From Terriglobales bacterium (GTDB taxonomy: Bacteria; Acidobacteriota; Terriglobia; Terriglobales; Acidobacteriaceae): a DNA stretch of 64,000 bases. Location of the stretch: positions 1-64,000 of the forward strand of contig DASPRM010000098.1 of NCBI GenBank assembly GCA_035624455.1. Direction: 5' to 3'. A program made the position numbers and the translations under genes. Shown here piece after piece: positions 35,695 through 56,331 of this stretch. Position 1 is the first letter of the stretch; each line of letters starts with the position of its first letter. The notes below the pieces were generated by a model. The model had not been told where the DNA came from. It made no database searches and saw only the letters and a list, made by a program, of their open reading frames with translations.

Positions 35695-36465
35695 CTACGC
35701 CGCATCGTGGAAGATCAGGCCCAGAGTGAAGCGGGTTCCGGAACGCACGCGGCTGACACCGTGACGCAGATTGAGGCGATAAAAACCGCGGCTTCCTTTG
35801 GCAGGGCGGTAACGCGTGGTAAAGATCAGAATTTGTCCCTGCTGGGGCACAATGACTTCGGGACGCGATTGCGCTCGTGGCTGCTGTTCGACCAAGACGA
35901 ACTCGCCGCCGGTGTAATCCACGTCTTTGCGACTGAGAAAGCAAGTCAGCTGCAGAGGAAATGCAATCTCGCCGTAGACGTCCTGATGCAGGCAGTTGTA
36001 GTCGCCGGCTTGGTAGTGGAGGAGGAGAGGCGTGGGCCGTGTCTGTGCATGTTCCGCGCACACCTCGAGAAACTCCGGCAGAGCAGCAGGAAAGCGGGTT
36101 GCGATTCCGAGCGCTTCATGCCAGGCATTGGCGATCGGGGCCAGCGGTGGATAGGCGGACTCGCGAAGCTGTTGAATGATGGGCGGAAGCGGGTAAGCGA
36201 AGTACTTATAGTCGCCCGAGCCGAAGCGATAACGCTTCATGACGATGTGACTGCGGAATTGCGAGTCGTCGCCATAAAGACCTGTGAGTTCGCCGCATTC
36301 TTTTGGCGTGAGGACTGCCGGAGTGAGGGCGCAGCCGTCATTCCACAGATCTTGAAGGATGCGATCCCAATCGAGCTGCGCCAGACGTGCCTGGATCGAA
36401 GGGGCCTCGGCTCTTTCTGAAATACCTGTGCTTTGAGAAATGCTTCCTGATCGCGTTGCAGCCAT
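35695..36465 (-). CDS. 2-oxoglutarate/Fe(II)-dependent oxygenase family protein
   Basis: The 256-residue protein has the iron triad His160-x-Asp162 (CLHQDVYGE) and His235 (NLRHGVS), with Arg245 (RFTLGLIFHD) to hold 2-oxoglutarate. The region resembles prolyl-4-hydroxylase-like enzymes; YTGGEFVLVEQQPRAQSRP is typical of the core. The substrate is unknown. ATG at 36465 was chosen over an upstream extension that overlaps hisA. It lies 73 bases after hisA on the same strand. Confidence 0.8.
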   Translation of the reverse strand: MAATRSGSISQSTGISERAEAPSIQARLAQLDWDRILQDLWNDGCALTPAVLTPKECGELTGLYGDDSQFRSHIVMKRYRFGSGDYKYFAYPLPPIIQQLRESAYPPLAPIANAWHEALGIATRFPAALPEFLEVCAEHAQTRPTPLLLHYQAGDYNCLHQDVYGEIAFPLQLTCFLSRKDVDYTGGEFVLVEQQPRAQSRPEVIVPQQGQILIFTTRYRPAKGSRGFYRLNLRHGVSRVRSGTRFTLGLIFHDAA

Positions 36466-36538
36466 AAGTGGTGTATAAGACAGCGTACCGCGATCCCAAC
36501 CGCAGCAATATCCATTTCTTGCGATGGCATTCAGCGGC

Positions 36539-37213
36539 TCAGACCAGAATTCGCCCCGTGTAAATGGCCATTCCGACAATCGCATCAATTCCCTGCTGAT
36601 GCAGTTGCTCGATTTCCGCCTGAGTGCTGATGCCGCCAGCCACCATGAGTCTTCGTTTGGCAGCCGCGGCCAACTCGGGAATCACCTCCAGGGGAAAGCC
36701 CTGCATCAGTCCTTCGGTGTCCACGTGGGTATAGAGGAAGGCGCCACAGTAATCGTTCAGGGCGCGCATGGCAATCGCGGGAGAAAAATCGGTGAGCGTG
36801 CGCCAGCCATGGATGGCGACGCGGCTCTGCTTGCTATCCACTCCAAAGGTAAGCTTGTCGAGACCGAGGGCGGTGGCGAGTTCGGCGGCAAATTGATGTT
36901 GAATGGCGCCATCGCGGAACAGCGCCGAGCCGATAATGACCCGGCGAGCACCCAAATCAATCGCCCTCCGCGCACCCTCAAGAGAGCGGAGCCCGCCCCC
37001 AACCTGGCAGGGGAGGCGCGACAAAAAGCGGGCGATCAGGTCCGCGTTATTTCCTGTGCCGATGGCAGCATCGAGATCGATGAGCTGCACCAGTGGATAA
37101 CGCGCGAATCGCTCGATCCAGTATTCAAAGTCATCGAAGGCGAGCGCCTTCTTATCGCCTTGCACCAGCTGGACGATCTTGCCGCCCATCAAATCGATTG
37201 AAGGAATCAGCAT
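36539..37213 (-). CDS. hisA: ProFAR isomerase (HisA)
   Basis: The 224-residue (beta/alpha)8 protein catalyses the fourth histidine step, the Amadori rearrangement of ProFAR to PRFAR. It has the N-terminal IPSIDLMGGKIVQLVQGD (catalytic Asp in SIDL), QVGGGLRSL, VIIGSALF, and the C-terminal VAGGIST phosphate site and AIVGMAIYTGRI. It is slightly shorter than E. coli HisA (245). It is the last his gene, 115 bases after hisF with a repeat in the gap. Confidence 0.93.
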   Translation of the reverse strand: MLIPSIDLMGGKIVQLVQGDKKALAFDDFEYWIERFARYPLVQLIDLDAAIGTGNNADLIARFLSRLPCQVGGGLRSLEGARRAIDLGARRVIIGSALFRDGAIQHQFAAELATALGLDKLTFGVDSKQSRVAIHGWRTLTDFSPAIAMRALNDYCGAFLYTHVDTEGLMQGFPLEVIPELAAAAKRRLMVAGGISTQAEIEQLHQQGIDAIVGMAIYTGRILV

Positions 37214-37275
37214 GCGGAGTAAAGCGACCTTTCGCCAGGACAGGCAGCAACCTGGTCCGCAAATTCAGGCACAAC

Positions 37276-37325
37276 TTCTTTCGATTGGGACGGGATTTGT
37301 GTACCCGTCCTTGCTCAAGATGACA
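37276..37325. repeat. dispersed intergenic repeat, copy f inside the his operon
   Basis: TTCTTTCGATTGG leads into GGACGGG (37288-37294), which pairs with CCCGTCC (37304-37310), and the copy ends GCTCAAGATGACAT. It lies in the only sizeable gap of the operon, between hisF and hisA, where a hairpin could alter hisA expression. Confidence 0.55.
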
Positions 37326-37328
37326 TTC

Positions 37329-38237
37329 CTAGACCGGCCAGCGCATGGCAATGCCAGCAGCCTGGATTTCGCGCTTGAGGTCGCCGATGGAATGAATGCC
37401 GAAATGAAAAATCGAGGCCGCTAATGCGGCGTCGGCATGGCCATCTCGGAAGACCTCGATGAAGTGCTCGATCGAACCAGCGCCACCGGAGGCAATTACC
37501 GGAATTGAGACCACGCGTTCCACCGCGGCCGTCAGCTCGCAGTCGAAGCCCTCACGCGTGCCATCGCGATCCATGGAGGTAAAGAGAATTTCCCCCGCAC
37601 CGCGGCTTTCGGCTTCTTTGGCCCAAGGGAAAAGAAGCCGGCCTGTCGGCTTGCGGCCTCCGGACACATAGACTTCGGCATCGCCCAACAAATTGTGGCT
37701 CGAAGCGAGGTCGGCATCGTGTCCCTGATGGGTTTCAGAAGAGCCTTGCCGGGTGGGCGGACGGTTGACGTCAGTGGCCAAACGCTTGGCATCGATAGCG
37801 ACCACTACCGCCTGCGAGCCGAAGCGTTCGGCGATCTGGGTAATCAAAGACGGGTCGGCAACGGCTCCAGAGTTGATGGTGATCTTGTCTGCTCCCGCGT
37901 CGAAGATCGCGGCCGCGTCTCTCAGGGTGCGAATGCCTCCGCCTACGGTAAAAGGCACAAAGAGCACGCGCGCGGTGTGGCGAACGGTGCTCACCAGGGT
38001 TCCACGTCCTTCGTGGGTGGCGCTGATATCGAGCAGCACGATTTCATCGGCGCCGGCTTCCGCGTGTGCAGCAGCCAGTTCCGCCGGATCTCCAGCGTCA
38101 CGGAGATTCATGAACTGAACACCTTTGACCACACGTCCGCGCGAGCAGTCGAGGCAAGCGATGATGCGTTTGGTCAACACCGGATCGAGACTCGTTTGTT
38201 CAGAGACCTTGCCGAGGACCTGCGAATCAGGCGGCAT
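37329..38237 (-). CDS. hisF: imidazole glycerol phosphate synthase cyclase subunit (HisF) with insertion
   Basis: HisF closes the imidazole ring from PRFAR and ammonia delivered by HisH. It has [21 protein letters not shown] with the catalytic Asp30, [19 protein letters not shown], the second catalytic Asp149 in AIDAKR, and [10 protein letters not shown]. The 302-residue length exceeds the usual 253: about 19 extra N-terminal residues and a 34-residue insertion near 154-187. ATG at 38237 overlaps hisH by 11 bases; a GTG at residue 20 would give the canonical MLTKRII start. Confidence 0.93.
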
Positions 38238-38835
38238 CCTCGAGCATGGCGAAATTGTCCAGGATTCGCAGTCCCGCCTGGCCAGATTTTTCAGGATGAA
38301 ACTGCACACCAAACAGATTTGCTCTCTCCACCACACCGGTGAACGGCGTCCCATAGTCGGTCTTGGCAACGGTTGCTTCCATCACCGGTACGCGGTAGGA
38401 ATGCGTGTAATAAACAAAGGCGCCGGAAGGTACGCCTGCGAGCAGCCGCGATGGGGCAAGCATTTCAATCTGGTTCCAGCCCACGTGAGGCGACTTCACG
38501 CGGCTGGAAAACTTTTCCACCTCGCCGCGAAACAGGCCCAGCCCGGGCACTCCCGGCGCCTCCGTACTGGATTCGAACATCCACTGCATGCCCACGCAGA
38601 TGCCGAGGAAAGAGGCGCCTTGTGCGAGCGCCTCCCGGATGGCCTCGCGTAATCCGACCTCAGTGAGCCGCTGTGTGGCAGTGAAGTGGCCGACACCGGG
38701 AACCACCAGACGGCGAGTTCTGCGCACCAGCCCGGGATCCTCGGTAATTACAGTTTCGTGGCCGAGATGCTCGAATGCCTTGCGCACCGAGGCGAGATTC
38801 CCGGCATGGTAGTCGACAATGGCAAGCTTGGTCAC
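38227..38835 (-). CDS. hisH: imidazole glycerol phosphate synthase glutamine amidotransferase subunit (HisH)
   Basis: The 202-residue class I amidotransferase releases ammonia from glutamine for HisF. The triad is Cys80 (GICVGMQ), His180 and Glu182 (VQFHPEKSG). It starts with [17 protein letters not shown] at a GTG whose bases overlap the hisB stop (GTGA). Its 3' end overlaps hisF, which fits coupled translation of the two partners. Confidence 0.95.
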
Positions 38836-39419
38836 AGCAACCCCTTCGTACTGGGCAGAGCTTTAGCCAGTTGCTTGTCGCGCGCGCAGGCCACGCGTAG
38901 TGCGCGGGCAAACGCTTTGAACAGCGCTTCCACCTTATGATGATTGGAACGGCCATAGAGCACTTTAAGGTGGATGTTGGCGCGCGCGCCGCGGGCAAAG
39001 CCGTCAAAAAAATCGTGCACCAGCTCCGACTGCAAGTCCCCCACCAGACGTGTACGAACCTTGCTCTCGACGACCACTGCGGTACGGCCGCTCAGATCAA
39101 CCGCGGCCAAGCCCAGAGTTTCATCCATCGGCATGAGGAAGTATCCGGCGCGGTTAATGCCCTTCTTGCTGCCCAGAGAACTATCAAACGCTTCGCCCAA
39201 TGCAATGCCGACGTCTTCCACGGTGTGATGCTGGTCTACATCCAGATCACCGCGGCAGGTCAGCTTGAGATCGAAGCCGCCGTGACGAGTGAACAGCTCG
39301 AGCATGTGATCGAGAAAACGGATCCCGGTGGACACGGAATATTTTCCTGAGCCCTCGATGACCAGTGCGAGACGGATATCGGTTTCCGTGGTTTGCCGGT
39401 GCAGTTTCGCCTTCCTCAT
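38832..39419 (-). CDS. hisB: imidazoleglycerol-phosphate dehydratase
   Basis: The 195-residue monofunctional IGPD has the two metal-binding His motifs, [15 protein letters not shown] and [18 protein letters not shown], and later [10 protein letters not shown] and [12 protein letters not shown]. It dehydrates IGP to imidazole acetol phosphate. No histidinol-phosphatase domain is fused. ATG at 39419 overlaps the hisC stop (ATGA); the frame is open upstream but lacks family similarity. Confidence 0.95.
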
Positions 39420-40492
39420 GCGCTCACCCGGTTGGTGACCCCGATATCCGCCAGGGCCAGACGCATAGCAGCGAGCAATTGCTCGGTATGCTGGCGGAGT
39501 CCGATGGTGATGCGCACGCAGCCGGTGCAACCCGGCTCCGAGCTGCGGTCGCGCACCAAAATGCCACGGCGCTCAAGCGCTGCGCTTAATTGCTGGCTGC
39601 GTGGGCCCACACGCACCAGAACGAAATTCGCCTGACTTGGCCAGTAATGCAATCCGAGATCGTCGCAGAGCTGTTGCAGGCGGGCTCGGCCCTCTCTGAC
39701 CTGTTCGACGTAAGAGTGCACGAACTCCTGATCCGCCAGCGCTTCCCCAAGACAGGCGAGCGCCACCCCATTCACATTGAAGGGCGGGACAAACCGACGA
39801 ATCAGATCAACCTGCGTTGCAGCCCCGAGGAGAGCGCCCAAACGAAGGCCCGCCAGCCCATAGGCCTTGGACAAGGTACGGGTGATGAAGAGATGGTCGA
39901 AATCTGGAAGCTGGTCGAGAAGGGTTTGCCCGAAAAACTCAAAATAGGCCTCGTCCACGATCACTGCGGCATCGGGAGCTGCCTGCAAGACTCGAAGCAG
40001 GTCGGTGCGCGGCACTGTGGTTCCAGTGGGGTTATTGGGATTGGCGATGGCGATCAGGCGGGTGCGCGAGTTGATGGCCTGGAGCACGCGATCAGTCGGA
40101 TAGGCAAAATCTTCGGCACAAGGGATCTCAACAATGCGCGCACCGGTGGCTTGAATGTAGATGGGATACATGGTGAAGGTGGGAGCGATCAGAATGGCCT
40201 CGTCGCCTTCTCCGAGGTAGGTTTCAGCCAGCAGGTGCAGAGCTTCGTCCACCCCGTTGGTCAGTAGAACCTGCTCAGGACTCAATCCCAGGAAATCTGC
40301 AACCAGGCGCTCTCCCTGCTCGCGCTCAGGATATCGGGCGATGTCCAGGGTAGTAAGCGACTTCAGGCGTTGAAGGACGCGGGGCGAGCAGCCGCCAGTA
40401 TTTTCGTTCAGGTCCAGATTCAGGCCCGAGCGGCCCGCAGCCGGGGCGTGATATGCGCTCAGGCAGCGAATTGACTCGCGGGGTTTAAGCAC
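39416..40492 (-). CDS. hisC: histidinol-phosphate aminotransferase
   Basis: The 358-residue PLP enzyme transfers an amino group from glutamate to imidazole acetol phosphate. It has LDLNENTGG near the start, NPNNPTGT (151-158), VDEAYFEF, and Lys209 in [14 protein letters not shown]. Its start overlaps hisD by 8 bases and its stop overlaps hisB. Confidence 0.94.
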
Positions 40493-41732
40493 GGCTGCAC
40501 CTCACACGGACGGAATCAGCGTGCGCTTGCAGGCCCTCCGCCCGCGCCAGGGTTTCGACCACAGGCGCGAGACTGCGAATGCCATCGCTCGTCGCCTGCT
40601 GCACGGTGACGATCTTCAGAAAATCCAACACGCTCAGACCGCCACGAAAGCGCGCCGCCCCGGCGGTGGGCAGAACATGATTGGGGCCGGATGCGTAGTC
40701 GCCCAAGGCCTGCGCAGTGTAGTCACCGATAAATATCGATCCCGCATTGCGAACATCTCCGAGTTGCGCCTCGGCCACGGTGAGGTGCTCGGAGGCGATC
40801 GCATTGGCAACTTCCATCGATGCTGCCGGCGACCCGGTCAGAAAAATCAGTCCGTTCCTGGCGAGCGATTGCGCAGCCGCGGAATTGGTCTGCGCTCCCT
40901 TCTTCAGTTCGACGGCCAGGGCTTTCGCGAGATCAGGCCGAGATGTGATGAAGACAGCGCGGGCATCGGGGTCATGCTCCGACTGCGCCAGCATATCAGC
41001 GGCAATAAATGCGGGGGTTCCGGTGTCGCTTACCAGGACAGTCTCCGTAGGTCCGGCGAGAAAATCGATGGCGCAATCGAATGCGACGAGTTTCTTGGCG
41101 GTGGTCACGAAGCGATTTCCTGGACCTACGATCTTCCGCACGGCAGGAATGCTCCGGGTTCCATAGGCCAGAGCCGCAATGGCCTGAGCGCCGCCAATCG
41201 CATAGAACTCGTTCACTCCGAGCAGGGCTGCCGCAGCGAGCGTCTCGAGCGCAGGTCGCGGAGATGCCACCGCGATCCGCCCGACACCGGCCACTTGGGC
41301 TGGGATGACTGTCATCAACAGCGACGAGGGCAAGGGATAACGGCCACCGGGGACGTAACATCCTACCGATTCCAGTGGCCGAATGACCTGTCCTACTGAG
41401 ATGCCAGGCTGAACCTCGCGCAGGAATTCCTGCGGCTTCTGCCAGTCCGCGAATTGGCGGATATTGCGAGAGGCGCTTTCGAGAGCCCGGCGGAATTCGG
41501 GGTTCACCGAAGTCAGCGCGCGCTGCAGTTCTGTCTGCGTAACCCGAAACGGCTGCTGCCGCGAGAGGCCGTCGAGCCGTTCGGCATAGCGGCGAAGCGC
41601 GACGTCACCCTGGCTTCTGACATCGCGGACAATTCGCGCCACCACGCGCTCGGTTTGCGCGGCGAACAGCAGACGGCGAGATTCCAGATTCTTTAGTTGT
41701 GCGGCAATCGCCCGTCCTTTGATTATGCGCAT
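40485..41732 (-). CDS. hisD: histidinol dehydrogenase
   Basis: The 415-residue zinc enzyme oxidises histidinol to histidine in two NAD-dependent steps. Conserved stretches are CYVPGGRYPLPSSLLM, VRKIVGPGN, DFLAGPTETVLV, AQSEHDPDARA, the catalytic SEHLTV and DYASGPNHVLPTAGAAR. It lies 34 bases after hisG. Confidence 0.95.
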   Translation of the reverse strand: MRIIKGRAIAAQLKNLESRRLLFAAQTERVVARIVRDVRSQGDVALRRYAERLDGLSRQQPFRVTQTELQRALTSVNPEFRRALESASRNIRQFADWQKPQEFLREVQPGISVGQVIRPLESVGCYVPGGRYPLPSSLLMTVIPAQVAGVGRIAVASPRPALETLAAAALLGVNEFYAIGGAQAIAALAYGTRSIPAVRKIVGPGNRFVTTAKKLVAFDCAIDFLAGPTETVLVSDTGTPAFIAADMLAQSEHDPDARAVFITSRPDLAKALAVELKKGAQTNSAAAQSLARNGLIFLTGSPAASMEVANAIASEHLTVAEAQLGDVRNAGSIFIGDYTAQALGDYASGPNHVLPTAGAARFRGGLSVLDFLKIVTVQQATSDGIRSLAPVVETLARAEGLQAHADSVRVRCSRA

Positions 41733-41766
41733 TGCGCTGTTCCGATTTCGAGCCGGCTTGGCAAAA

Positions 41767-42651
41767 TCACATCACAACCTTATTTAGAGGGTACTCCACG
41801 ATCCCCTGCGCTTTCGCTGCCTTCAATCTCGGGATGATGTCGCGCGCGGTGGTTTCTTCGATGATGGTGTTCACCGCTACCCATTGTTCGCCGTCATCGG
41901 CGGCGAGTTCAGAAATGGTGGGTCGCTTCAGAGCGGGAAGCACTGCGAGAACCCCTGCCAGGTCATCCTTGCGCACATTGAGCATCAGCCCGACCCGACC
42001 CTGAGCGGCGATCGCTCCGGTCAGCATCAGCGCCAGGTTCTGGATCTTCTCCTGTTTCCAGGGATCGGCGAAAGACTTCCTGTTGGCGATCACCTGGGTA
42101 TAGGACTCCATGATGGTGTCGATGATCCGTAAGCGGTTGGCGCGCAGCGAAGAGCCTGTTTCGGTGACTTCCACAATCGCGTCCGCCAGCGTCGGCGGCT
42201 TGACTTCGGTCGCGCCCCAGGAAAAATCGACTCTGACATTAATGAGCTTGCCGGCGAAATATTTCTTAGTGACATTCACCAGTTCGGTGGCGACCACGCA
42301 CCCATCCAGGTCCTCGGCGCGGTGGAAGCGCGAGTCCTCGGGAACTGCAAGCACCCAGCGAACCTTGCCGCGGCTCTGCTTGGCATAAATCAGATCAGCG
42401 ACCGCCTCGACTTCCAGGCCGCTTTCGATCAGCCAGTCTTTTCCGGTGAGACCGACGTCAATTACTCCCTGTTCGACGTAGCGCGCCATTTCCTGCGCAC
42501 GAATCAGCATGCAGTCGATCTCGGGATCATCGGCGACAGGAAAATACGATCGACCGCTGACATAGATTTTCCAACCCGCGCGTTCGAACAGTTGCACGGT
42601 GGCGTCCTGCAGCGAGCCTTTGGGAATGCCGAGAGTGAGTTTTCGGCTCAT
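41767..42651 (-). CDS. hisG: ATP phosphoribosyltransferase, long form
   Basis: HisG joins ATP and PRPP in the committed and feedback-regulated step. The 294-residue length with a C-terminal segment ([21 protein letters not shown]... [33 protein letters not shown], shown here in part) marks the long form with its own ACT-like regulatory domain, so HisZ is not needed. The core has [18 protein letters not shown] and [20 protein letters not shown] at 42651 overlaps the hisI stop (ATGA). Confidence 0.95.
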
Positions 42652-42998
42652 CGCTTCGTCTCCCCAGGGGGGAGGGTCAGGTCGCGCGTAAAGCATGAGC
42701 GAGTCCCCTCGTGGCATACGAGTCCGTCGCCTTCTACGGTCACGCGGTAGAGCACTGTGTCGTAATCGCAGTCGGTGCTGGCGGAGAGAACCCGCAGGCG
42801 ATTGCCCGAGGTCTCGCCTTTGGTCCAGAGCTGATTACGGGTGCGGCTGAAGAAGGTCACGTAACCTGTGCGCATGGTCAGTTCAAAAGCGTCACGGTTC
42901 TGAAAACCCACCATAAGCACTTCGCCATCGGAGGCGTCCTGTACCACGGCCGGGGCCAGGCCCTGCATTTTGTCAAAGTCGATGGTCACGGTGTTCAT
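42648..42998 (-). CDS. hisI: phosphoribosyl-AMP cyclohydrolase
   Basis: The 116-residue zinc enzyme opens the purine ring of PR-AMP. It has [16 protein letters not shown], the [23 protein letters not shown] block and the [10 protein letters not shown] and HEGTRSCF cysteine segments. It has no HisE domain, and no separate hisE is in the window. It is the first structural gene of the operon and starts 14 bases after the U-run of the leader terminator; GGGTGA is its ribosome site. Confidence 0.95.
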
Positions 42999-43012
42999 TG
43001 CATGGTCACCCG

Positions 43013-43050
43013 AAAAACAAAAGGCCCGCTGATTTTAAGCCAGCGGGCCT
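43013..43050 (-). terminator. his attenuator terminator
   Basis: On the minus strand AGGCCCGCTG (43041-43050) pairs perfectly with CAGCGGGCCT (43022-43031), a 10-bp stem with a 9-base loop, followed by TTTGTTTTT (43013-43021). It stands between the leader peptide and hisI, so it must be read through for the operon to be expressed. Confidence 0.9.
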
Positions 43051-43132
43051 CGGAATCCTGATTTGCTATTGCGTTATCCGCAGACCTCCGCTGACTTGGG
43101 CGCCGAATGGTGATGATGGCGATGGGTCAGCG
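43037..43132 (-). promoter_or_regulatory. his attenuator: competing RNA pairings
   Basis: Segment 1, CGCTGAC (43126-43132), is complementary to segment 2, GTCAGCG (43089-43095). Segment 2, AAGTCAGCGG (43088-43097), is complementary over 10 bp with one G-U to segment 3, CCGCTGGCTT (43037-43046). Segment 3 also forms the 5' arm of the terminator (43041-43050). A ribosome stalled at the His codons covers segment 1 and frees segment 2 to block the terminator; a ribosome at the stop codon covers segment 2 and lets the terminator form. Confidence 0.85.
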
Positions 43133-43139
43133 AGATCAT
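43074..43139 (-). CDS. hisL: his operon leader peptide (21 residues, five His in six codons)
   Basis: ATG at 43139 opens a 21-codon frame ending at TAA (43074-43076). Codons 6-11 read His-Arg-His-His-His-His; the peptide begins MISLTHRHHHH and ends SAEVCG. Its position upstream of a terminator and hisI, and the pairing segments placed before and after the His codons, show a regulatory leader peptide. No Shine-Dalgarno sequence is visible. An in-frame ATG at 43154 exists but lies within the predicted -10 box. Confidence 0.88.
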   Translation of the reverse strand: MISLTHRHHHHSAPKSAEVCG

Positions 43140-43149
43140 AAGAAAGGCA

Positions 43150-43179
43150 AGCATATGTGTTTATTGACCCCGATGTCAA
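43150..43179 (-). promoter_or_regulatory. his operon promoter
   Basis: Minus-strand TTGACA (43174-43179), an 18-base spacer and TATGCT (43150-43155; 4/6). Transcription would begin near 43143, only about four bases before the leader-peptide ATG. It lies in the divergent gap with the aminotransferase gene. Confidence 0.65.
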
Positions 43180-43242
43180 AGGAAAGTTGCGGCCATTACG
43201 GGCTGGGCATTGGGTAATATAGAGCTCAGTCCAGGAACGATC

Positions 43243-44406
43243 ATGCCACAGCTAAGCCAAAGAGCCGCGCACATAAGCCAGTCCGATATCCGCACTATGT
43301 CCGTGGAGTGCGAGCGCGTACGGGGAGTGAATCTGGCGCAGGGTATCTGCGACACGCCGGTGCCGCCCGAAGTTCGGGCAGCGGCCGAGCGGGCTATCGA
43401 AAGCGGACAGAACCAGTACACGCGACTGGACGGCGTTGGCGCACTCCGCCAGGCGATTGCCGAGAAGATGCGTGCGTTTAACGGAATCGAAGCCGATCCG
43501 GAGCGCGAGATCGTGGTCACGGTGGGATCCACCGGCGCATTCTATTGTGCGTCTCTCTCGATGTTGAATCCGGGCGATGAGGTGCTGCTGTTCGAGCCGT
43601 ACTATGGCTATCACGTGCACACGGTGGAGGCTGTCGGCGGCGTGCCCCGTTACATCACGCTGCGGTCCCCCGACTGGAAATTTGAGCGCGAAGACCTGCA
43701 GCGTGCCATTAGCCCACGTACACGCGCCATCGTAGTCAACACCCCCGCGAATCCATCGGGCAAAGTATTCACTCGCACCGAACTGCAATGGATCGCGGAG
43801 GTCGCGCAGGAGCACGATCTTTTCGTCTTCACAGATGAGATTTACGAATATTTCGTGTACGACGATGCTGGCCACATCAGCATCGCCACGCTGCCGGGGA
43901 TGGGTGAGCGAACGATTACGATTTCTGGCTATTCGAAGACCTTCAGCATCACGGGCTGGCGTATCGGTTATGCGGTCTGCTCGACTTGCTGGGCGGGTGC
44001 GATCGGCTACTACAGCGACCTGGCATACATCTGCGCGCCGGCGCCGCTACAGCACGCGGTAGCAGCCGGAATCAAAGTACTGCCAGAAAGCTTTTACGCA
44101 GGTTTGCGCCGTGACTACAAGAGGAAGCGCGACCTGCTCTGCCGGGCATTGGCCGAAGCGGGATTCACCTGCGGTATGCCTGCTGGGTCTTATTACCTTT
44201 TGGCGGATGCATCCCGGCTGCCGGGCAAAAACAGCAAAGATCGAGCGATGCACTTGCTGGAAACCGCGGGTGTGGCGGCGGTTCCGGGCGGCGCGTTTTA
44301 TCATGACAAAGCCGGTGAAAACCTGCTGCGCTTCTGCTATGCCAAGACCGATGCCGACCTGGAAGAGGCTTGCCGCCGCCTGCAACGGGTCCTGGTGCGC
44401 AGCTAG
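43243..44406 (+). CDS. class I/II PLP-dependent aminotransferase
   Basis: The 387-residue fold-type I enzyme has NLAQGICDTPVPPEV, the NTPANPSGKVF motif, DEIYEYFVYD, the cofactor Lys in ISGYSKTFSITGWRIGY and LLRFCYAKTDADLEEA near the end. It resembles aspartate/kynurenine-type transaminases; the amino donor is not predictable. AGGA six bases before ATG at 43243 supports the start. It is divergent from the his operon and may share its control region, but that is inference. Confidence 0.82.
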   Translation: MPQLSQRAAHISQSDIRTMSVECERVRGVNLAQGICDTPVPPEVRAAAERAIESGQNQYTRLDGVGALRQAIAEKMRAFNGIEADPEREIVVTVGSTGAFYCASLSMLNPGDEVLLFEPYYGYHVHTVEAVGGVPRYITLRSPDWKFEREDLQRAISPRTRAIVVNTPANPSGKVFTRTELQWIAEVAQEHDLFVFTDEIYEYFVYDDAGHISIATLPGMGERTITISGYSKTFSITGWRIGYAVCSTCWAGAIGYYSDLAYICAPAPLQHAVAAGIKVLPESFYAGLRRDYKRKRDLLCRALAEAGFTCGMPAGSYYLLADASRLPGKNSKDRAMHLLETAGVAAVPGGAFYHDKAGENLLRFCYAKTDADLEEACRRLQRVLVRS

Positions 44407-56246: not shown

Positions 56247-56269
56247 ATGGAGTTCTCCAAAACGAGTTT

Positions 56270-56320
56270 GGTAGGAGTTATCAGCTCGTGTGCGGAGCGG
56301 TTATGGCGAACTCCATCGCC
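56270..56320 (-). promoter_or_regulatory. fluoride riboswitch (crcB motif)
   Basis: On the minus strand the segment GGCGATGGAGTTCGCC (56305-56320), then AACCGC and, after a variable loop, CTGATAACTCCTACC (56270-56284) match the conserved core of the crcB motif RNA. It ends 23 bases before crcB. A CCAAACTCGTTTTGG hairpin and the GGAG ribosome site follow at once, so control is probably at translation initiation or by early termination. Confidence 0.92.
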
Positions 56321-56331
56321 GTCCGCGAGCC

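Follow-up and report, generated by a model that had tools for sequence, protein, structure and literature searches.

The window analysed here, that is, the whole stretch of 64,000 nucleotides, carries a set of histidine biosynthesis genes on the minus strand, and the question raised by this locus is whether the segment directly upstream of the first of them is a regulatory RNA and, if so, of which kind. Eight ORFs behind this segment, all on the minus strand, could be read from Pfam domains and order as an operon, hisIGDCBHFA: hisI (phosphoribosyl-AMP cyclohydrolase, PRA-CH; 42648–42998, PF01502), hisG (41767–42717, PF01634 and PF08029, with a true ORF start that may be further in), hisD (histidinol dehydrogenase; 40485–41732, PF00815), hisC (class I/II aminotransferase, named by position; 39416–40492, PF00155), hisB (imidazoleglycerol-phosphate dehydratase, IGPD; 38832–39530, PF00475), hisH (glutamine amidotransferase, named by position; 38227–38835, PF00117), hisF (37329–38369) and hisA (36539–37213), the last two both possessing the His_biosynth domain PF00977 and distinguished by position and sequence. 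A HisE (phosphoribosyl-ATP pyrophosphatase) domain was absent from the Pfam results of these eight ORFs (36539–42998, minus strand). Behind hisA, an ORF at 35695–36588 (minus strand) matched PF09859, described as an oxygenase with damaged DNA as its substrate. The window also contained an ordinary fluoride riboswitch (RF01734, 58.4 bits; 56265–56329, minus strand), just downstream of which a minus-strand ORF (56246–55872) encoded a protein resembling the CrcB/FluC fluoride channel.

In front of hisI, a leader ORF of 21 codons plus stop, MISLTHRHHHHSAPKSAEVCG, was located at 43139–43074 on the minus strand, as were all leader parts described below. It contained the His-Arg-His-His-His-His run (HRHHHH, 43124–43107) that an earlier note on this DNA had reported and that was read here as the regulatory codons; counterparts of this ORF were present in most relatives (see below). 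A second in-frame ATG further upstream (43154–43152) would make an ORF of 26 codons; because it falls within the predicted -10 box (43155–43150), this start is less likely and the 21-codon start is the better one. The -10-like hexamer, TATGCT, ended 10 nt before the leader ATG and was separated by a spacer of 18 nt from a -35-like hexamer, TTGACA (43179–43174), the position of which relative to the leader ATG was conserved in relatives. The promoter scan of nt 42900–43400, by consensus match only, gave just two promoter-like sites, both upstream of the terminator; it thus offered no sign of the transcript starts behind the terminator that the earlier note had named as a refutation. This terminator, a stem-loop formed by strands 3 and 4 (43051–43021), began 22 nt 3′ of the leader stop codon (43076–43074) and consisted of 12 pairs with a loop of 7, longer than the 10 bp assigned to it in the earlier note. 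Its T-rich run (43020–43013) ended, as stated there, 14 nt before the hisI ATG at nt 42998. Strand 1 (43137–43126), the partner of strand 2 when no ribosome is present, lay at the start of the ORF; strand 2 (43095–43077) was entirely within the ORF, its end adjoining the stop codon, and began 11 nt, i.e. nearly the four codons previously given, 3′ of the last His codon; and strand 3 (43054–43039) could pair with either strand 2 (antiterminator) or strand 4 (terminator). As argued below, it is highly probable from this arrangement and its comparison among genomes that the segment controls the his operon as a ribosome-mediated transcription attenuator, whose leader ORF is probably leaderless.

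Conservation was assessed through hisI. A search of 100 genomes detected HisI in 77 of them, own genome included, with 78 match rows altogether. Of these rows 70 were examined; the other 8 were weak or were fragments lying at the ends of contigs. Just upstream of hisI, 65 of the 70 loci had an ORF with at least 3 His in 8 residues. Among the five loci lacking it, the contig of L021 ends 48 nt upstream of hisI, so that the leader was missed for lack of sequence; L055 had none in the 260 nt available, and L068 to L070 had distant HisI proteins in long open frames. At a stricter threshold of at least 5 His in 8 within 300 nt, 59 of 69 loci were positive versus 0/69 reverse complements and 0/1380 dinucleotide shuffles. 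The His-rich ORF upstream of hisI is therefore not due to chance. Named records were assigned to a phylum by their titles and kept if the upstream sequence was 150 nt or longer, as it was for 34 of 36 acidobacterial and 44 of 44 other loci. Of these, 30/34 acidobacterial loci, including those of Terracidiphilus gabretensis and Granulicella rosea, had at least 4 His in 8, versus 3/44 non-acidobacterial loci. One of these three, L102 (JAIEMQ010000004, a MAG titled Cyanobacteria), has the same his leader as the acidobacterial genome G261 and is probably a mislabelled record. In 37 of 63 leaders an Arg codon adjoined the His run or interrupted it (HRH or RHH), for which no reason was found; the idea that it is retained to pair with a later GGCG was rejected, the association not reaching significance (Fisher p 0.07 overall and 0.09 within the family).

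These counts bear on the possibility that the operon is controlled by some other His-responsive RNA or a repressor (a T-box, a riboswitch or a HisR-like protein) and that the leader ORF is incidental. Such control has precedent, since the available text of PMC9413887 describes his genes under T-boxes and HisR in Firmicutes. Yet no Rfam family, T-box included, reached the gathering score in the operon and 16 relatives, no T-box covariance match was found before the window operon, and the excess of His-rich ORFs over reverse complements and shuffles means that the ORF cannot be incidental. Control of this kind in place of the attenuator is thus extremely unlikely, but a repressor may act in addition to it.

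Pairing of the strands was examined in an alignment (A1) of 23 of the 28 leaders from the window's family; the five divergent sequences L011, L020, L026, L038 and L039 were left out, and the covariation counts therefore describe the more alike part of the family. The terminator helix 3:4 had 91.3% of cells paired, with five pairs changed on both sides, and the antiterminator helix 2:3 had 86.2% paired, with three pairs changed on both sides. Both the paired cells and the covariation score of 2:3 exceeded those of all six slid versions, although two slid versions also had at least three double-changed cells. For 1:2 in the window's fixed register, 60.3% of cells were paired with zero covariation, and RNAalifold on A1 returned the terminator and a short unconvincing stem, without 1:2. 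When 19 leaders of other families were aligned with MAFFT (A3), strand 2 did not come into register, and this alignment was excluded from the counts.

An alignment-free test was applied to 63 of the 65 leaders, the near-duplicates L053 and L056 being left out. Each leader's own strand 2 fitted its own downstream region best (0 of 20000 permutations as good, z −7.95); the same test for 1:2 gave z −4.69, where the control pairing was also off chance (z −2.15, 347/20000). With only the terminator arms as the downstream side (n = 49), 0 of 20000 permutations did as well for 2:3, 18 for 1:2 and 791 for the control. These 49 were the leaders retained from the 65 after removal of those for which the simple scan gave no terminator, or gave one at too great a distance or in a clearly wrong place; a terminator-like hairpin could be seen by eye at most of the dropped loci. 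Permutations inside the family alone were as good in 7/20000 cases for 2:3 and 902/20000 for 1:2. Thus, of the three mutually exclusive pairings proposed earlier, 2:3 and 3:4 stood and covaried, while 1:2, strong in the fold of the window, was weakly supported across relatives, with permutation support against an imperfect control. The leader has an antiterminator in competition with its terminator, and this antiterminator includes the stretch that a ribosome at the stop codon would mask.

A core pattern of strand 2 was recognized in 33 of the 63 leaders and was absent from the other 30. Of these 33, 26 carried it in frame 0, two in frame 1 and five in frame 2, and it was read as V-S-A in most of the window's family and as C-Q-R or similar elsewhere. 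Its occurrence in all three frames suggests that strand 2 is selected more as RNA than as peptide. The same observation weighs against a different reading, in which the ORF encodes a functional His-rich microprotein, e.g. a metal-binding one, with the downstream hairpin as a normal terminator of this ORF. In its favour, metals are bound by His-rich peptides, HisI is itself a metalloenzyme, and the peptides of 63 relatives, with 14 to 29 residues and 3 to 9 His, would suit such a role. However, the sequence after the His run follows the RNA, with the same core in three frames and covariation with the terminator arm, and the ORF precedes whichever his gene is first (hisI, hisZ or hisG), so that we consider the microprotein very unlikely and retain attenuation. 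The RNA logic is thus retained although the peptide changes in sequence and frame.

The helices were next considered as alternative states of the RNA. Folding of the leader, which the earlier note had put forward as a check for nt 43010–43143, showed its 134 nt to be more stable than 200 of 200 dinucleotide shuffles (z −3.74). The window leader RNA was able to form the helices 1:2 (−22.6 kcal/mol for 43139–43077), 2:3 (−21.8 kcal/mol for 43096–43039, with strand 4 not yet transcribed) and 3:4 (terminator region folded while strand 2 is masked, −22.5 kcal/mol). The 2:3 pairing, for which 10 bp had been reported, was confirmed as a pairing but amounted to 16 bp in three blocks. State folds were computed for 47 loci, i.e. 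the 49 terminator-bearing leaders minus two near-duplicates. A 2:3 helix of at least 5 bp formed before strand 4 is made at 45/47 loci, and a 3:4 helix of at least 5 bp formed at 47/47, these loci having been selected for possessing a terminator. At equilibrium, 2:3 won in only 16 of the 47 loci, and the minimum-energy fold of the complete window RNA retained the terminator even with strand 2 free. Since the terminator is favoured at equilibrium in the window, antitermination would have to be kinetic.

On this basis the following mechanism is proposed. Transcription would begin at the leader AUG or a few nt upstream of it, and a ribosome would load on the 5′ end of the RNA. When charged His-tRNA is abundant, this ribosome would pass the His codons and reach the stop at 43076–43074, masking most of strand 2 (the general size of a ribosome footprint is assumed here); strands 3 and 4 would then make the terminator, and transcription would end near nt 43013. 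With charged His-tRNA scarce, the ribosome would stall on the His codons and cover strand 1, leaving strand 2 free to pair with the emerging strand 3, so that the terminator would not be made in time and hisIGDCBHFA would be transcribed. If there were no translation, 1:2 would form and the terminator would follow.

The leader might instead act on translation of hisI, through a hairpin that hides the start region or through reinitiation coupling, rather than on transcription. Attenuators of the translational kind exist (PMC9413887, in the part of the text available), and for short leader genes close to the gene that follows, a role in helping reinitiation has been proposed, also in Acidobacteria (PMC4833913, likewise in part). 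The hairpin here, however, is a GC-rich stem followed by a T-rich tail, ending in the window at least 14 nt before hisI. Across relatives the hairpin mostly lay 20 to 29 nt 3′ of the leader stop, and the distance from the leader stop to the hisI start was 49 to 181 nt, which is long for coupling. Action on translation is accordingly judged most improbable, and transcription attenuation remains the preferred reading.

How the leader ORF itself is translated was approached through its upstream region. A promoter-like pair scoring at least 8 of 12 was found at 55/63 loci versus 9/63 shuffled sequences, and in 53 of those 55 the -10 box ended 6 to 14 nt before the leader ATG; since the ATG closest to the His run was counted as the start, this analysis may be biased towards short 5′ regions. 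Shine-Dalgarno-like motifs preceded the leader ATG in 2/63 loci and hisI in 22/63. Among 35 further leaders, listed by hand and including L089 with only three His, 24 scored at least 8 (versus 6/35 shuffled), 17 of the 24 with a gap of 8 or 9 nt. In the class of G261, 10/15 leaders scored at least 8, 8 of those with a gap of exactly 9 nt. The gap between the -10 box and the leader AUG was nearly fixed, mostly at 8 to 10 nt, in at least two classes. In the window's class and that of G261, promoter spacing and the rarity of SD-like motifs fit a leader ORF that is probably leaderless, a feature that the earlier note had missed. Among the leaders of the G180 class, 0/7 had a promoter scoring at least 8, and the claim therefore does not extend to that class. 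Leaderless genes have been predicted in 3/3 acidobacterial genomes in the material available from PMC3160421 (2011).

The breadth of the element was examined with a covariance model of the leader. In the own genome it gave one strong match, 96.5 bits, at the his operon, the next scoring 15.7. In 297 genomes of the phylum, 162 matched at E 0.1 or better, many of them weakly and with the hairpin only. Sixteen matched loci, nearly all among the better matches outside the window's class, were inspected: 9 had a His-rich ORF before a his gene, namely hisI in 7, hisZ at L189 and hisG at L192, and 7 had none. In the class of G261 (loci for 30 of 39 HisI match rows), the leader was found at 15/30 hisI loci, and these were split by HisI identity: 15/15 at 61% or above had the leader, versus 0/15 at 55% or below. 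In the class of G180 (loci for 30 of 43 hisG match rows), 7/30 hisG loci, all from family f30, had the leader and 23/30 did not; an eighth f30 member, G180, had it before hisZ. Within the window's class, nearly every operon that begins with hisI has the leader; elsewhere its occurrence is patchy. The conservation of the His run and the pairings in relatives, sought by the earlier note, was thus found, and the element recurs in two further classes, hence in at least three classes of Acidobacteriota, before hisI, hisZ or hisG, a breadth that the earlier note had not noticed. A more far-reaching proposal, and a speculative one that we hold only tentatively, is that this is an old, widespread leaderless his attenuator in Acidobacteriota, with the ribosome loading at the 5′ AUG on its exit from the polymerase. 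If so, the device would sense how well the cell can initiate on leaderless mRNA as well as the charging of His-tRNA, and every termination event would set free a small leaderless mRNA, the RNA or peptide of which could act in trans, as with trpL of Sinorhizobium meliloti.

Leaders for other amino acids were also sought. In the window's class, 11/30 trpE loci passed a loose tryptophan threshold, and a strict scan found a terminator in 0/30; 9/30 asd loci passed a loose Lys/Arg threshold and 7/30 had a terminator-like match, without a consistent pattern; and 2/30 ilvB loci passed the composition threshold. No attenuator was seen at the trpE, ilvB and asd loci of the own genome (L222, L246 and L289). 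In another acidobacterial family, the ORF at L198 (G123:C121) ended in MMIAATFNRYYWWYR and had two neighbouring Trp codons; a terminator hairpin came after it, and this leader is likely a trp attenuator before a trpE-like gene (named by resemblance). Upstream of ilvB in five f6 genomes (L234, L236, L237, L239 and L241) were Ile/Leu/Val-rich ORFs, several ending GPA or similar; a terminator was found by the scan at two of them (L236 and L241), and these leaders are possible branched-chain attenuators. Upstream of asd-like genes, L195 (G269:C19) and L199 (G112:C37) had small ORFs that resembled each other, rich in Lys and Arg (ARKR...KR...) and with ends rich in Ala and Val; terminator hairpins came next, and the arrangement is possibly an attenuator of the lysine type.

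Compared with known systems, the leader resembles the enteric his attenuator (hisL; Rfam His_leader) in having a run of His codons, competing helices and an intrinsic terminator before the his operon. The enteric his leader peptide ends soon after its His run, whereas the window ORF has about 10 residues after it, with strand 2 inside the ORF; unlike the enteric system, the first gene behind the leader is hisI. Rfam His_leader gave no match at the gathering score for the window leader and 16 relatives, nor up to E 10 for the window leader, on which the sub-threshold matches were Thr_leader (15.5 bits, cut-off 55) and Trp_leader (14.3 bits, cut-off 41). Six leader peptides had no Pfam match, and one irrelevant match in NCBIfam (E 0.98). 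According to the available parts of PMC2965389 and PMC9413887, leader-peptide attenuation is known mainly from Proteobacteria and Actinobacteria, with his attenuators predicted in some Firmicutes, and in the 2010 survey (PMC2965389) almost none of the predicted acidobacterial attenuators had an assigned function. No acidobacterial his attenuator is described in the accessible portions of PMC2965389, PMC4833913 and PMC9413887, and among the mostly open-access titles and abstracts searched, without the 2010 survey of Lopatovskaya and others, none reported a his attenuator in Acidobacteria. A major soil phylum thereby gains a concrete, testable regulatory RNA.

Two other known systems come close. 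As far as its available text goes, PMC9413887 predicted his attenuators by comparison in 17 genomes from three Firmicutes lineages, with three to five His codons, and never mentions Acidobacteria; those attenuators resemble the present one in having a His leader peptide with a terminator and an antiterminator before the his operon. For the start, the parallels are the leaderless leu, trp, ilv, met and thr leaders of Streptomyces lividans (PMC8079986, which in its available part lists eight, none for histidine) and the leaderless leader peptide trpL of S. meliloti (PMC7298713, available part), in which the transcript starts at the leader start codon and the attenuator precedes amino-acid genes. 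Unlike these leaders for other amino acids, the start in the window was deduced from promoter spacing. The mechanism is very probably classical attenuation, the unusual feature being the probably leaderless leader ORF, and the likeness to the Streptomyces and Sinorhizobium leaders suggests that leaderless leader ORFs are a recurring arrangement in distant phyla.
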